From: a bacterium
GTDB lineage: Bacteria; Krumholzibacteriota; Krumholzibacteriia; LZORAL124-64-63
Assembly: GCA_014730255.1 (NCBI GenBank)
Contig: WJIQ01000064.1
Coordinates: 1 to 35,455, forward strand
Direction of reading: 5' to 3'
Length of the DNA stretch: 35,455 bases
Under the pieces are notes generated by a model. The model searched no databases, had not been told where the DNA came from, and saw nothing but the letters and a program-made list of their open reading frames with translations. Position 1 is the stretch's first letter. The number at the start of each line of letters is the position of its first letter. A program made the position numbers and the translations under genes. This document shows, piece after piece, positions 15,499-21,466 of the stretch.

Positions 15499-15984
15499 CT
15501 AGTCCTGGCCGATCGCGCCGACCAGGGTCTTCTCCTGGTCGTTGAGGATGCGGTCCATGTCCAGCAGCAAAACCACCCGCTCCTGGAACTTGCCCACGCC
15601 GAGGAGGAACTCCGTGGCCCCGGCGTCGCCGAGGTGCGGCGGCGGCTCGACGCTGTCCGCGTCGATGTCCATCACCTCGGAGACCTCGTCCACCGTCACG
15701 CCCATGGTCACCAGCTCGTCGTTCATCATCACCTGGACGACCATGATGCAGGTCAGCTCGGTGGCCTCCCTGGCCCCCATTCCGAACTTCAGGCGCAGAT
15801 CGATCACGGGGATCACCTTGCCGCGGAGGTTGATCACGCCGCTGACGAAGTCGGGCGTGCGCGGGACCGAGGTGATGTCCATCAGGCCGATGATCTCCTG
15901 GACCTTCAGGATCTGCAGGCCGTAGTGCTCGTCACCGAGCTTGAATCCCATGTACTTGCCGGCGGTGGCAATGGCGGTGCTCAT
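15499..15984 (-). CDS. cheW: CheW-like chemotaxis coupling protein
   Basis: A 161-residue single-domain CheW. Typical phrases are YGLQILKVQEIIG, PDFVSGVINLRGKVIPVIDLRLKFGM and a C-terminal VVLLLDMDRILNDQE. CheW normally links methyl-accepting receptors to the kinase CheA in the cytoplasm. No cheA, cheY or receptor gene is present in this window, so its partners must be elsewhere. The ATG at 15984 is supported by GGGGAG about 7 nt upstream. The frame stays open to 16272, but that extension runs into the terminator and solute-binding-protein region and has no CheW similarity. It may be cotranscribed with the M1 aminopeptidase 16 nt downstream. Confidence 0.93.
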   Translation of the reverse strand: MSTAIATAGKYMGFKLGDEHYGLQILKVQEIIGLMDITSVPRTPDFVSGVINLRGKVIPVIDLRLKFGMGAREATELTCIMVVQVMMNDELVTMGVTVDEVSEVMDIDADSVEPPPHLGDAGATEFLLGVGKFQERVVLLLDMDRILNDQEKTLVGAIGQD

Positions 15985-16057
15985 GATGCTCCCCTTCGGA
16001 TCGGATGTCTGCGCCGTCGACACCGGTGGGATCGGCCGTTCCGGAGGGGGCTTGAGG

Positions 16058-16091
16058 AAAAAAATTCCGGGTGGGTCAATCTTGCCGCCCG
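16058..16091 (-). terminator. Candidate intrinsic terminator after the solute-binding protein gene
   Basis: Read on the minus strand, CGGGCGG (16091-16085) can pair with CCACCCG (16074-16068) with one mismatch across a 10-nt loop, followed by GGAA and a run of seven T (16064-16058). The stem overlaps the stop codon of the solute-binding protein. If real, cheW needs its own promoter in the following 70 nt, where I see no clear match. Confidence 0.45.
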
Positions 16092-17689
16092 AGGCGTTCC
16101 AGGCGCAGCGAACCGTCGAGATTCCAGTCCCAGCCCTCGATGGACGGGCGCGCGGCGACGAACGCCCGGGTCCGCACCAGCGGCTGCACGACGCGCTCGC
16201 GCTCCAGGCGGCGCATCGCCGCGAGCGCCGATCCGGGCGCGGCGGCATCGGTGAACTGCGCCGGTCGGGCACCCGGGGGCACGGCCTCCGTGGCGGCGTC
16301 GCCGTCCAGGGCGATCGCCTGCAGCCAGGCGGCCAGGCTCAGGAGTCGCGCCAGCTCGTCGCAGGGCCGCGCGAATCGCCGGGGCCAGGGGACGACCGCT
16401 GCCCCGATGGGGTCCTGCTGCACGTGGGCACCGAGTGCGGAGGGGTCGACCGCCAGCGCGGTCGGACGATCGCCCGGACTGGGCTCCGGCGGCCGCGCCA
16501 GGGGGCCGCGACCGGGAATGTCGTCGTCCCGGATGGGGCGGGCGGCGACCGTGGCCAGGCGCTCGGCCAGCGCGCCGGCCTCGGGGTCGTCGGCGGGCCA
16601 GAGGATCAGGTTCTCGTCGCTCGCCGGACGATCCTCGGTCTCCGGCAGGGGTGGCGGGACGAGGCTGGGGGTGGCCGCGCGCAGGGTCGTGCAGAGGCCG
16701 GGCGGCGGCTCGTACGCCGAGAAGTCGGCGGGCGCGGCCAGCGCGTCGCCGATCTCGCGGGCGAGGACGCGCTGCTCCCAGCCGGTGGTCCAGCGGCGGT
16801 CGGCCTCCGGGGCGATCAGGTAGTACCAGCGATCCCAGGGCAGCTCGAGCACGTCGACCAGACGTCGCCCCGCGTAGTAGTCGTGTACGCGTCGCGAGCG
16901 ATCGACCACGGCGTGCAGACCTGTGTCCAGCAGGTCGCGAGCGTCGGTCCCCTCCCCGATCAGGAGGATCTCCAGGCGCGGCCACGATGGCCCCCGGGGA
17001 TGCTCGGCCGCCGGGAGCAGCGTGAGCTCGCCGCCGCGGGGCGAACCCTCCGGCCGGCACGGACCGGACCCGGCGAGCCACCCGCGGCCGTCCGAATCGC
17101 CGACCACTGCCAGCGCGGGATGGGCGAGGTCCAGAGGGAGGTTGTCGCTCGGCGTCCGGAGCCGGATCAGCAACTCGTCGCGGTCGAGGATCGCGACCGC
17201 ATCGCCACGGGGATCGAAGCGCAGGAACGGGTCCGGTTCGCCGCGCAGCCGGCAGAGGGCCACCGAGCGGCGCCAGGAGGCGATCACCGCGGTCGCGTCG
17301 GCCGGCGTACCGTCCCAGAACCGGGCGGCCGGGCGGAGCTCGAATCGCCAGACCCGGCCGCCGTCATACGCGGTCCACCGGCGCGCGAGACCCGGTCGGG
17401 CCGCGCCGTCGCAGTCCAGACGCACGAGGGTCTCGTAGAGGCCGGCGAACACGTGGCGCTCGGCCTCGCTGGCCGGCAGTGGCGCCCGGCTGGGAAGCAC
17501 GTCGCCCGTCATCGCCACCGAGATGGGCGCCCGCCCATCGCCGTCGCCCGCCGGCGGGCAGGTCACGGCCGCCTCCGCCGGCAGAAGCGCTTCCGGAAGC
17601 TCGTGCGGGCGTTCCCGCCAGCCGCCCCCGCCGCTGCTGCAGGAGCCGAGCAGGCCGGCCAGGGCCACGATGAGGAATGAACGGAGCAT
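16076..17689 (-). CDS. Family-5 (peptide/nickel-type) ABC solute-binding lipoprotein, orphan
   Basis: A 537-residue protein. The N-terminus is a lipoprotein signal with lipobox LLGSC, cysteine at residue 17, followed by SSGGGG. The next ~170 residues follow the SBP_bac_5 pattern: GLYETLVRLDCDG, RPGLARRWTAYDGGRVWRFELRPAARFWDGTPADATAVIASWRRS. A PWDRWYYLI phrase occurs near residue 270, and the remainder is more divergent. Such proteins bind oligopeptides or other small solutes and deliver them to an ABC importer, but no permease or ATPase of that type lies nearby. The ATG at 17689 gives a clean lipoprotein signal; a TTG at 17725 could extend it by 12 residues. Neither start has a strong ribosome-binding site. 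The divergent middle section leaves open that it has lost transport function. Confidence 0.78.
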   Translation of the reverse strand: MLRSFLIVALAGLLGSCSSGGGGWRERPHELPEALLPAEAAVTCPPAGDGDGRAPISVAMTGDVLPSRAPLPASEAERHVFAGLYETLVRLDCDGAARPGLARRWTAYDGGRVWRFELRPAARFWDGTPADATAVIASWRRSVALCRLRGEPDPFLRFDPRGDAVAILDRDELLIRLRTPSDNLPLDLAHPALAVVGDSDGRGWLAGSGPCRPEGSPRGGELTLLPAAEHPRGPSWPRLEILLIGEGTDARDLLDTGLHAVVDRSRRVHDYYAGRRLVDVLELPWDRWYYLIAPEADRRWTTGWEQRVLAREIGDALAAPADFSAYEPPPGLCTTLRAATPSLVPPPLPETEDRPASDENLILWPADDPEAGALAERLATVAARPIRDDDIPGRGPLARPPEPSPGDRPTALAVDPSALGAHVQQDPIGAAVVPWPRRFARPCDELARLLSLAAWLQAIALDGDAATEAVPPGARPAQFTDAAAPGSALAAMRRLERERVVQPLVRTRAFVAARPSIEGWDWNLDGSLRLERLGRQD

Positions 17690-17718
17690 GCGCACATGGA
17701 TGCAGGCGAAGACGACGC

Positions 17719-17748
17719 TTGACAAGTAAGGAAATACTTAGTCATACT
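17719..17748 (+). promoter_or_regulatory. Promoter of the sensor kinase/HD-GYP pair, with an inverted repeat in its spacer
   Basis: A perfect TTGACA at 17719-17724 and CATACT (4 of 6) at 17743-17748 are separated by 18 nt. Inside the spacer, AAGTA and TACTT form an inverted repeat (arms about 17724-17728 and 17735-17739, 6-nt loop). The patch is strikingly AT-rich for this genome. A protein bound there would sit directly between the two promoter elements. The kinase ATG is 82 nt downstream; I see nothing else identifiable in the remaining leader. Confidence 0.5.
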
Positions 17749-17829: not shown

Positions 17830-20040
17830 ATGACTCCCGCCAGTGTGCCCGTCTCCCTGCCTCCGCTGTTGCTGGCGATCCTCGGCGTGGGCATGGCCAC
17901 GCTCGCCGCCGCCCTCGTGGTCCAGCTCCGTCGGCAGGTCCGGGCCGCCTGGGCGGAGACCGGGCGCGTGCACGCCACGAGCACGGCCCGCTTCGTGGCG
18001 GTCGGCGACCTCATCGACGACGTGCTGTTCGAGACCGACGATCACCAGATCCTCACCTACACCAATCGAGCGTTCCACGAGCTGACGGGCTTCCGGCGGC
18101 GCGATCTGCGCAGTGGACTCTCCCTCGCGGACGTCCTCGACCTCGCCGGCGACGACGTCCGGCGAGAGTTCGAGCGTCCCGACCAGGATCAGGGGGTGCG
18201 CGTCCTGCGCTCGCACGTGTGTTGCCGCGACGGTGCCCGCGTGCCCGTCTCGATACGCATGACCCCGATCGCCGAACGCGAGCGCAGCGCCGGCTGGCGC
18301 TGCCTGGTCGAGCCCGTCGCGGAGGAGACCGAGACGACGCCGCACGCGGTCGAGGCCCTGCTGGGCGACATCCTCAGGGACTTCAACGAGACCCCGCGCG
18401 ACCAGCACACGGCCGCCATCGGCCGTGCGCTGGCGGGGATCGGGCGCCAGGTCGGCGCCGACCGCTGCTACCACTACGCCGTGAGCGCAGACGACCGGCA
18501 CCTCGAGAGCTTCAGCCAGTGGTACGCGCCGGGGGTCTCGCCGATGTCCGGCGACCGCCTGCTGCCGGGCCTGGATCACTACGCGTGGACGCTAGAACGT
18601 CTGCGCGAGGACGGGGTCCTGGCCGTGCCGGACGTCGCCGAGTTGCCGGCCGACGCGGTGCCGGAGGGCGAGCGGTGGCGAAGCCAGGGCATCACCTCGC
18701 TACTGGTCGCGCCGCTGCGTCACGGATCGAGGATCGTCGGCATCGTCGGCTGCGAGACCCTCGGACGGGTCCGCACCTGGGGCATCGGCGACCGCCAGCT
18801 GCTCGAGGCGATCGCGCAGATCTGCCAGCGCGTCCAGAACCACGACCGCACCGCGACACGGCTGGACGAGGCCAACGAACGGGCCAGCGACCTCGTCGAC
18901 CTCCTGCCCGAACCGGTGGCCATCGTCGACGCCGACGGTCGGGTGGTGGCCTGGAACGCGGCGCTGGCCCGTCTGGTCGACCGGGACCTGGACACGGTGC
19001 GCGGGGCCGACGCGTCGGCGACGCTCGACGAGGTCCTGCCCGGGGCGGGCGCGTGGTTCGCCGGGAAGGCCGAGGGCGAGTGCGTGGCCAGCGATTTCTT
19101 CGTCGATGGCGACCGCTGGCTGCAGCTGTCGGTGCGGCCGCTGAAGAACCGCGAGTGCATCGTCCACTTCTGCGACATCACCCGCGTCAAGCAGGAGGAG
19201 TGCCGGATCCGCGACCGCGCCGAGCGGCTCGAGCGGACGGTCGCCGACCGCGATCAGCAGCTGCAGCTCGCCCGCGATCGCCTGGTGGCGACCCAGCGGG
19301 AGACCGCCGTCGCGAGCATGGTGAGCGGGCTCGCCCAGGAGCTGGACGCGTCGGTGGGCGACGGCCTGACCGCGGCCGGCGAGCTGCTCGAGCGCACCAG
19401 CGAGCTGGACCGGGCCTACGGCGACGGCCTCATGACGCGATCGCAGTTCGAGGATTTCCTCGACGTGTCGAGGTCGTCGTCGGCGCTGATCGTCGGCAAC
19501 CTCCAGCGCGCGGCCGATCTGATCAGCGGCATGCGGCAGGCCGCCGTCGATCAGCAGGTCGCCGATCGTCGCCGACCCATCGCGCTGAGGAGCTACCTGG
19601 GCGACATGCTGGCGAGCCTGGCGCCCCGGCTGCGCGAGCGTCACATCGACATCACCTTCGACTGCCCGGACGACCTCGAGATCGAGGCCGACCCCGGCAG
19701 CCTGTACAGGGTCGTCAGCAACCTGGTGATGAATGCGTTGCAGCACGGCTTCGAGGGCATGCTGGTCGGCGAGATCAGGATCAACGCCGGCCGCGACGGC
19801 GACCGGCTGGTCATCGACTTCGAGGACAACGGTCGCGGCATGACGAGCGAGCAGCTCGAGCGCATGTACGACCCGGCGCGACGTTCCGGCGGAGCCGGCC
19901 TCGGCCTGCACATCGTCTACAGCCTGGTGACCAGGACGCTCGGCGGCACGATCACCTGCCGCAGCCGATCGGGGTCGGGGACCTCGTTTCGGATCGAGCT
20001 CCCACTGACCAGCGAGGTCCGACGCCATGCCCATGGTTGA
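17830..20040 (+). CDS. PAS-GAF-PAS sensor histidine-kinase-like protein lacking the phosphoacceptor His
   Basis: A 736-residue protein. Parts in order: one N-terminal membrane segment (about 11-32); PAS domain (about 55-150, with VLFETDDHQILTYTNRAFHELTGF); GAF domain (about 180-335); second PAS (about 355-455); a coiled coil (about 455-495); a dimerisation/H-box region (about 496-570); and a HATPase_c domain (about 595-735). The ATPase has an N-box (NLVMNALQHGF), G1 (DNGRGM) and G2 (GGAGLGLHIVY). The H-box reads MVSGLAQELDASVG, where related kinases have GxAHE; the position of the phosphorylated His is Q503 (codon CAG at 19336-19338). The F-box is also reduced (MYDPA). It may therefore bind ATP without autophosphorylating in the usual way. 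The start is chosen by GGAG 9 nt upstream. The gene overlaps the HD-GYP gene by 14 bp. Confidence 0.88.
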   Translation: MTPASVPVSLPPLLLAILGVGMATLAAALVVQLRRQVRAAWAETGRVHATSTARFVAVGDLIDDVLFETDDHQILTYTNRAFHELTGFRRRDLRSGLSLADVLDLAGDDVRREFERPDQDQGVRVLRSHVCCRDGARVPVSIRMTPIAERERSAGWRCLVEPVAEETETTPHAVEALLGDILRDFNETPRDQHTAAIGRALAGIGRQVGADRCYHYAVSADDRHLESFSQWYAPGVSPMSGDRLLPGLDHYAWTLERLREDGVLAVPDVAELPADAVPEGERWRSQGITSLLVAPLRHGSRIVGIVGCETLGRVRTWGIGDRQLLEAIAQICQRVQNHDRTATRLDEANERASDLVDLLPEPVAIVDADGRVVAWNAALARLVDRDLDTVRGADASATLDEVLPGAGAWFAGKAEGECVASDFFVDGDRWLQLSVRPLKNRECIVHFCDITRVKQEECRIRDRAERLERTVADRDQQLQLARDRLVATQRETAVASMVSGLAQELDASVGDGLTAAGELLERTSELDRAYGDGLMTRSQFEDFLDVSRSSSALIVGNLQRAADLISGMRQAAVDQQVADRRRPIALRSYLGDMLASLAPRLRERHIDITFDCPDDLEIEADPGSLYRVVSNLVMNALQHGFEGMLVGEIRINAGRDGDRLVIDFEDNGRGMTSEQLERMYDPARRSGGAGLGLHIVYSLVTRTLGGTITCRSRSGSGTSFRIELPLTSEVRRHAHG

Positions 20041-21466
20041 GATCCCGGTCGAGGACGTCGTCCTCTTCGCCAGCGAGGACGTGCACGAGCCGGACGAGCG
20101 GCGGCTGGTGGTCATCGTCGACGAGGACGAGGCGGTCCATCGCCGGGCGCGCGAGATGCTGGCCGGCCGTCCGGTGACGTTCCTGAGCGCGTACTCCACG
20201 GCCGGCGCGCGCGACATGCTGCGCGACCATCCCGAGGTGGCCGTCGTCCTGCTCGACGACGGGCTCGAGCGCGACGGGGCCGGCCTGCGGCTGATGCAGT
20301 TCCTGCGTCACGAGCTGGGGAACCACCGCGCCCGCGTGGTCCTGCGTCCCAGCCAGCAGCTGCGGACCCGGCTGCTCGTGGCCCTGCGCGAGTACCACGA
20401 GATCCAGCTCATGACGCGCGCCCGCGAGGGCATGCGCAGCGTCCTGGATGCGGGCCGGGCCCTCTTCGCGCACCGGGACGTCGACGGTCTGGTCGCCCAG
20501 GTCCTGCACGACCTGGTCGAGCTCGTCGCCTCCGATCCGCACAGCCTGCGTGTCCGGGGCGCGGTGGCGTCGCCGGACCTGGTCGTCTGCCGGACGTGCC
20601 GGATGGATCCCGACCTCGTCGGACGGCCGCTCGGCGACCTGCTGCCGCCAAAGACCCGACACGTGCTCCCGATGGTCCTGGACCGAGGGACGGGCGTCTT
20701 CCGTTCCGACGGCTACCTCGGCGTGCTCGGCGACGAGGATCAGAGTCGGCACGTGTTGCACCTGGCCTGGGACCACCTCGGAGTCGACGCCGACCGCGAT
20801 CTGGTCCGTCTGTTCATGGCCAACGCGTCGATGGCGTACCGGAACCTCGCGCTGAGCAAGGAGATCCAGGTCACGCAGCGGGAGATCATCCACACGCTGA
20901 GCCAGGTCGTCGAGACACGCTCGAACGAGACCGCCAATCACGTCCTGCGGGTCGGCCTGCTGGCAGCGCGTCTCGGCGAGCTCGCCGGGCTGTCCCCGAC
21001 CGAGATCGACGTGCTGCGCATGGTCGCGCCCATGCATGACGTCGGCAAGGTGGGCATCCCCGACGCCGTGCTGCTGAAGCCCGGCGCGCTGACCGACGAG
21101 GAGCGGCGCCTGATCAACGGCCACACGATCATCGGCCACACCATCCTCTCGCGCTCGGAACGCCGCATGCTGCGGGCGGCGGCCGTGGTCGCTCTCCAGC
21201 ACCACGAACGCTGGGATGGCGGAGGGTATCCCGAAGGCCTCGCCGGTGAGGCGATCCACCTGCACGCGCGCATCACCGCCATCGTCGACGTCTACGACGC
21301 GCTCACGCAGGATCGCGTCTACCGGCCGGCCATGAGCCACGAACGCGCCATCGAGCTGATCGCAAGCGACGCGGGGCAGGCGTTCGATCCCCAGCTGGCC
21401 GGGATCCTCGTGACGCACGAGGCGGAGTTCCGGGCCATCCGCGACGCTCACCCCGACGAGGCGTAG
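20027..21466 (+). CDS. Receiver-DUF3369-HD-GYP protein, probable cyclic-di-GMP phosphodiesterase
   Basis: A 479-residue protein. An N-terminal receiver-like domain (about 25-145) keeps an acidic pocket (D32, E33) and the phosphorylatable Asp D77 in VVLLDDG. The usual Thr after the fourth strand appears as P108 and the usual Lys as about R131. The middle region (about 150-290) fits DUF3369. The C-terminal HD-GYP domain (about 290-475) has NHVLRVG, the HD pair in MHDVGKVGIPD, GHTIIGH, and HHERWDGGGYPEGL, so all hallmark residues for c-di-GMP hydrolysis are present. DUF3369 proteins typically accompany a multi-domain histidine kinase, as here. Coupled translation with the overlapping kinase gene suggests the two act together. 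The 3' end overlaps the convergent oxidoreductase gene by 19 bp. Confidence 0.9.
   Translation: MPMVEIPVEDVVLFASEDVHEPDERRLVVIVDEDEAVHRRAREMLAGRPVTFLSAYSTAGARDMLRDHPEVAVVLLDDGLERDGAGLRLMQFLRHELGNHRARVVLRPSQQLRTRLLVALREYHEIQLMTRAREGMRSVLDAGRALFAHRDVDGLVAQVLHDLVELVASDPHSLRVRGAVASPDLVVCRTCRMDPDLVGRPLGDLLPPKTRHVLPMVLDRGTGVFRSDGYLGVLGDEDQSRHVLHLAWDHLGVDADRDLVRLFMANASMAYRNLALSKEIQVTQREIIHTLSQVVETRSNETANHVLRVGLLAARLGELAGLSPTEIDVLRMVAPMHDVGKVGIPDAVLLKPGALTDEERRLINGHTIIGHTILSRSERRMLRAAAVVALQHHERWDGGGYPEGLAGEAIHLHARITAIVDVYDALTQDRVYRPAMSHERAIELIASDAGQAFDPQLAGILVTHEAEFRAIRDAHPDEA

Follow-up and report, generated by a model that had tools for sequence, protein, structure and literature searches.

Histidine kinases and receivers without their phosphoacceptor residue have been described: the His is absent from about 0.9% of HisKA domains and the Asp from 2% of receivers (PMC12632262). 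In DivL of Caulobacter the His site is occupied by Tyr and the histidine kinase fold is kept (PMC4211667). How pseudo-receivers are controlled has been called a mystery in a review, and those analysed there are recognised as PF00072 domains over their whole length, with substitutions in the active site (PMC12632262). A kinase together with a REC/HD-GYP c-di-GMP phosphodiesterase is found in HnoK-HnoB of Shewanella, where HnoB is switched by phosphorylation of its receiver (PMC8846402).

Like DivL, the sensor kinase encoded in the window (the whole stretch of 35,455 nt that was analysed) contains PAS domains, has its phosphoacceptor His replaced, keeps most of the other boxes and is not expected to have autokinase activity (PMC4211667). 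The Tyr of DivL is conserved in orthologues, whereas the Gln of the window kinase occurs in one genome only. The orthologue in the congener G006 has His, and the conservation of the substituted residue that marks a DivL-type kinase was thus not found. The F-box is intact in DivL and shortened in the window kinase. The receiver sensed by DivL, DivK~P, is functional and phosphorylated, whereas the one adjacent to the window kinase is itself defective. Like the pseudo-receivers of PMC12632262, this receiver lacks key catalytic residues (T and K) and has an intact output domain. Unlike them, it has lost alpha4-beta5 by one in-frame deletion, keeps its Asp and is encoded by a gene that overlaps the pseudokinase gene.

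The window pair resembles HnoK-HnoB in its architecture, but the route by which HnoB is switched appears closed in it. The model for NosR-family REC/HD-GYP regulators (NCBIfam NF053512) matches the HD-GYP part of the window regulator below the cut-off. Canonical pairs at the same locus (L080 in G026, L082 in G018 and L043 in G009) share gene order, DHp/CA subfamily, DUF3369 and HD-GYP with the window pair. Unlike it, they keep the His, the Pro, an FFTT or FYTT F-box and a full receiver that includes the Thr of beta4 and the beta5 block. A pseudokinase and a pseudo-receiver in one overlapping cognate pair were not found in a search limited to the open-access literature. Taken separately, both kinds of protein have been described before.

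The sensor kinase gene

The sensor gene begins with an ATG at 17830, ends with a stop codon at 20038-20040 and has GGAG 8 nt 5' of the ATG. The following features were located:

17830..20040, + strand: sensor pseudo-histidine kinase, 736 aa (ORF, Pfam, alignment with orthologue L009)
18025..18822, + strand: PAS1 (residues 66-153) and GAF (residues 199-331) (Pfam PF13426, PF01590; three-way alignment)
18898..19191, + strand: PAS2 (PAS_4, residues 357-454) (Pfam PF08448; alignment)
19261..19554, + strand: degenerate DHp (residues 478-575) (family alignment, His scan, Pfam)
19336..19338, + strand: Gln503 codon CAG at the phosphoacceptor position, where the family has His (sequence, orthologue alignment)
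19690..20010, + strand: HATPase_c (residues 621-727) (Pfam PF02518, 86 bits; alignment)
19867..19887, + strand: F-box/ATP lid with a 4-residue in-frame deletion (family alignment)

From the N terminus, the order is one TM helix (read from the sequence by eye), PAS, GAF, PAS, degenerate DHp and HATPase_c (from Pfam). By three-way alignment the PAS1-GAF part is retained in three of three congeners, the truncated gene of G007 included. Single-sequence AlphaFold2 gave the kinase core a mean pLDDT of 54.8, too poor for fold comparison. Beside the sensor gene, and divergent from it in all three congeners, lie genes for a CheW-like protein and an SBP_bac_5 solute-binding protein (15499-17725 of the window, - strand).

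Phosphoacceptor site and ATP-binding domain

The H-box GLAQELD occupies 19327-19347 and, counted from the ATG at 17830, its CAG codon encodes Gln503 at the position of the phosphoacceptor His, as the original prediction had it. The window kinase therefore does not have the DHp His of a canonical histidine kinase. It is a pseudo-histidine kinase, a homologue without the phosphoacceptor His, by virtue of Gln503 and its grouping with the His-bearing G006 kinase. To judge from sequence constraint, it may also still be part of a signalling pathway, as such proteins are. There is no His anywhere in DHp residues 478-575, the nearest being residues 446 and 605; therefore the DHp offers no alternative phosphoacceptor, and this candidate was rejected. 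HisKA was not matched in the window kinase by Pfam, and canonical relatives match it weakly.

It had been proposed that only the phosphoacceptor was lost, which proved too narrow: Thr507 and Pro508 next to the H-box, Phe/Thr/Thr of the F-box and many DHp positions are changed too. Compared with 26 canonical family members, 14 of 29 near-invariant positions are altered in the DHp and 6 of 37 in the CA domain. The N-box (NLVMNALQHG), G1 (EDNGRGM) and G2 (GGAGLGLH) are all present. The F-box reads YDP----ARRSGGAG in the window kinase versus YEPFFTTKRGRGGTG in the family (in short, YDP----ARRS versus YEPFFTTKR), which is an in-frame deletion of four residues. This confirms the earlier description of intact N, G1 and G2 boxes with a shortened F-box.

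Because the window kinase has neither the phosphoacceptor His nor an alternative His in the DHp, and because its F-box is shortened, it should not autophosphorylate; its ATP-binding motifs remain. The claim that it does not autophosphorylate normally fits these features. The ATP-binding domain is probably still maintained.

Related kinases and the ancestral state

The sample comprised 38 genomes of the taxonomic family, including the window's own, with 28 related kinases whose H-box was readable. All 28 carry the phosphoacceptor His, mostly within GLSHEINTP or GVAHEINTP. The nearest orthologue is that of G006 (L009, L039), from the same genus, which is 51-53% identical over nearly full length (11-731 for L009). 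Its H-box is GLAHEIDMP and its F-box, IFEPFFTT, is complete; in the kinase tree the window kinase is its sister with 100% support.

An alignment of orthologues had been proposed as a check on whether the Gln is conserved. It returned His in the nearest orthologue and in the 27 other family kinases, which rules out a conserved Gln. As His is family-wide, the ancestral state is His and the Gln, found in one genome, is derived. His in the orthologues, which the original prediction had listed, jointly with sequencing evidence for CAC or CAT, as evidence against itself, was thus observed; an alternative DHp His, listed likewise, was absent.

From the 26 canonical members, 66 near-invariant columns were defined (29 in the DHp, 37 in the CA domain). 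The window kinase has changed 20 of these, the G006 kinase 16 and the canonical members 0-5 (range by leave-one-out). The window and G006 kinases share eight derived states at conserved columns of the DHp, which places the weakening of constraint on this region before their split. Relaxation of the DHp would then be partly older than the split, the window lineage having afterwards lost the His, Pro508 and part of the F-box.

A scan of GTDB species contigs for other members gave only one unrelated Rhodanobacter kinase. Two or three subfamily kinases, all with His, lie close together per contig in G005 (L020/L032), G035 (L021/L033/L035) and G034 (L022/L034/L036), which looks like local duplication.

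The partner regulator

The gene of the downstream regulator begins at 20027, before the kinase gene has ended, in agreement with the apparently operonic arrangement reported earlier. Its features are:

20027..21466, + strand: partner response regulator, 479 aa, truncated REC-DUF3369-HD-GYP (ORF, Pfam, canonical partners at the locus)
20108..20392, + strand: pseudo-receiver (alignment; Pfam Response_reg)
20345..20350, + strand: junction of a 27-residue in-frame deletion, between VVLR and PSQQL (alignment)
20375..20866, + strand: DUF3369 domain (Pfam PF11849)
20894..21397, + strand: HD-GYP phosphodiesterase domain (Pfam; family alignment; alignment to 4mcw)

From the family homologues a full REC-DUF3369-HD-GYP is expected. 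The 27 deleted residues extend from after beta4 to before alpha5, and alpha4-beta5 is gone. In relatives this block reads TGQPGQAPE...YDINDYKAKTELT and contains the conserved Thr and Lys. Asp77 at the phosphoacceptor position (20255-20257) and the acidic pair D-E are retained. The window receiver scored 17.8 bits with Response_reg, below the cut-off and over model positions 1-67 of 111 only; a canonical relative scored 39.3 bits. With 37 of 58 invariant receiver columns lost or changed, and with T and K missing from the conserved DD, D, T and K of a recognisable receiver, it belongs to the pseudo-receivers. The mean pLDDT of the regulator in single-sequence AlphaFold2 was 38.5, too poor for fold comparison.

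Since the phosphotransfer residues of both partners are missing, phosphotransfer has been lost on the kinase side and on the regulator side. Without its Thr, Lys and alpha4-beta5, the regulator is presumably closed to cross-talk from other kinases as well, and presumably there is no other donor.

The HD-GYP domain has kept 65 of 70 family-invariant residues; the five violations compare with 0-8 in canonical members. The difference in violated columns between REC (37/58) and HD-GYP (5/70) is large (Fisher p = 4e-12) and persists when the deleted block is left out (p = 4e-4). Aligned to 4mcw, the window domain has identical residues at all eight metal-ligand positions and at Lys225 of PmGH (residues from PMC4159591), and the GYP motif is present. 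Asp183 of PmGH is Ser in the window, likewise in the canonical family members shown. As the metal ligands and Lys225 are all matched, the window HD-GYP c-di-GMP phosphodiesterase is predicted to be catalytically competent. That c-di-GMP is made in this organism is suggested by the GGDEF matches of its genome, four of full length and two shorter. The genome also has eight other HD-GYP (HD_5) matches, and these copies could render the window HD-GYP dispensable.

At its 3' end the regulator gene overlaps a convergent GFO/IDH/MocA oxidoreductase gene by 19 nt (21448-21466).

The locus in the family and in the genus

The arrangement of an M1 peptidase gene, the kinase-regulator pair and then the oxidoreductase, LTD and acyl-CoA dehydrogenase genes was found in several other genera (G018 and G025; partly in G009 and G026). 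Such conserved flanks across genera mark the pair as old and vertically placed.

At the locus of G006 the oxidoreductase gene comes straight after the kinase gene, and the regulator is absent. This kinase (L039:8147-10405, + strand; genome 86% complete) is catalytically intact. All that is left in the 4-contig genome of G007 is a 425-aa frame for PAS-GAF, with PAS2 mostly deleted; this truncated orthologue (L040:8481-9755, - strand) is the sensor part alone, without the kinase half, and its end runs into the antisense of the neighbouring oxidoreductase gene. The regulator has been cleanly deleted in both genomes. No copy of the sensor was found in G008 (75% complete), where the oxidoreductase lies in another context. 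G006, G007 and G008 have no DUF3369 protein, and that of the window's genome is the only one in the genus sample.

In the tree of neighbouring genes, G006 and G007 group at 99% with the window outside. As the regulator is gone in these two sisters, the genus has given up phosphotransfer on at least two independent occasions. In the window lineage, residues were lost and the receiver was cut by a deletion; in the other lineage, the regulator disappeared. The family ancestor would have been an ordinary two-component pair, dismantled by different routes in the window's genus.

Maintenance or decay

Judged from the sequences, the pair must either work without phosphate transfer or be in the course of being dismantled. 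On balance we favour a maintained, phosphate-independent phosphodiesterase, whose constitutive activity is more likely than control by contact with the sensor. The ancestor would have been a membrane PAS-GAF-PAS histidine kinase, with a c-di-GMP phosphodiesterase of REC-DUF3369-HD-GYP architecture as its phosphorylation target. On the way to the window pair, the kinase has lost the His, the Pro of the H-box and part of the F-box, and the regulator has lost receiver alpha4-beta5 with the Thr and Lys for accepting and stabilising the phosphoryl group. The HD-GYP enzyme, if expressed, would work unphosphorylated, most likely constitutively, or else by directly contacting the sensor pseudokinase, whose PAS-GAF input and ATP occupancy could set its conformation.

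A staged decay is a real, if lesser, possibility. It supposes that the pair is unselected in the genus, that phosphotransfer residues went first and that the frames are open since the loss is recent; G006 and G007 would then represent later stages or alternative ones. The three congeners that keep the locus are each affected differently, and no copy was found in the fourth, G008. G006 and G007 have lost the regulator and G007 also the kinase half, which marks the pair as dispensable and the window as possibly an earlier stage. The repeated loss of phosphotransfer, the DHp constraint already weakened before the split and the G007 gene running into the antisense of its neighbour point the same way. 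Against this, conservation of the HD-GYP domain equals that in intact relatives, and no part other than the receiver has been gutted. Nor does the window kinase core show faster evolution than the core of its sister in G006, which is catalytically intact (branch lengths 0.45 versus 0.57).

Neither frame is interrupted, and GC3 lies at 0.88-0.95 whichever domain is taken. Third codon positions change most in every domain between the window and G006, which are too diverged for a useful dN/dS. With 5% simulated neutral substitutions, the kinase frame was open in 17% and the regulator frame in 44% of simulations; with 10%, these values fell to 3% and 18%. The low kinase value beyond about 10% argues against a long decay, but a neutral period of 2-5% substitutions often leaves both frames open and is compatible with a recent loss of function. 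Changes at conserved columns on the window versus the G006 branch were 10:3 in the DHp and 7:9 in the ATPase domain. As a sign of a maintained ATPase domain this contrast is suggestive, the DHp versus CA difference within the kinase being not significant (Fisher p = 0.13).

The original prediction held that a selected change, not decay, had occurred. The constraint on HD-GYP and the shorter core branch support it in part; the broken receiver and the losses in congeners indicate relaxed constraint on phosphotransfer and speak against it.

Less likely still is that the two-component operon has turned phosphate-free in such a way that the ATP-binding pseudokinase controls the HD-GYP by contacting the receiver remnant without alpha4-beta5.

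It is very improbable that the window kinase is a heterodimer half or an allosteric partner of another histidine kinase, as DivL regulates CckA. The DivL precedent (PMC4211667) and the retained ATP-binding motifs agree with such a role, which was also part of the earlier proposal. Yet no second kinase of the DHp subfamily was found in the window's genome (94% complete), where the next best match to the kinase region scored 64 bits; true members of the subfamily in other genomes reach about 165-250 bits. The adjacent regulator is dead as a phosphoacceptor, and DivL has a conserved Tyr and a functional target, DivK, neither of which is true of the window pair. A sequencing or assembly error hiding CAC or CAT, conceivable in a draft genome of 407 contigs with CAG one base from a His codon, is the least credible explanation, as Pro508, Thr507, the F-box and the receiver bear independent in-frame changes pointing the same way and base-call errors do not account for three in-frame deletions (12, 15 and 81 nt).

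Meaning of the pair

Under the favoured reading of a maintained phosphate-independent phosphodiesterase, as under decay, both ends of phosphotransfer have been lost in one lineage, with intact homologous pairs family-wide and three states of the locus within a genus. Together they form a natural series, which lets one ask whether phosphate-free signalling evolves by way of such pairs or whether such pairs are waypoints to gene loss.
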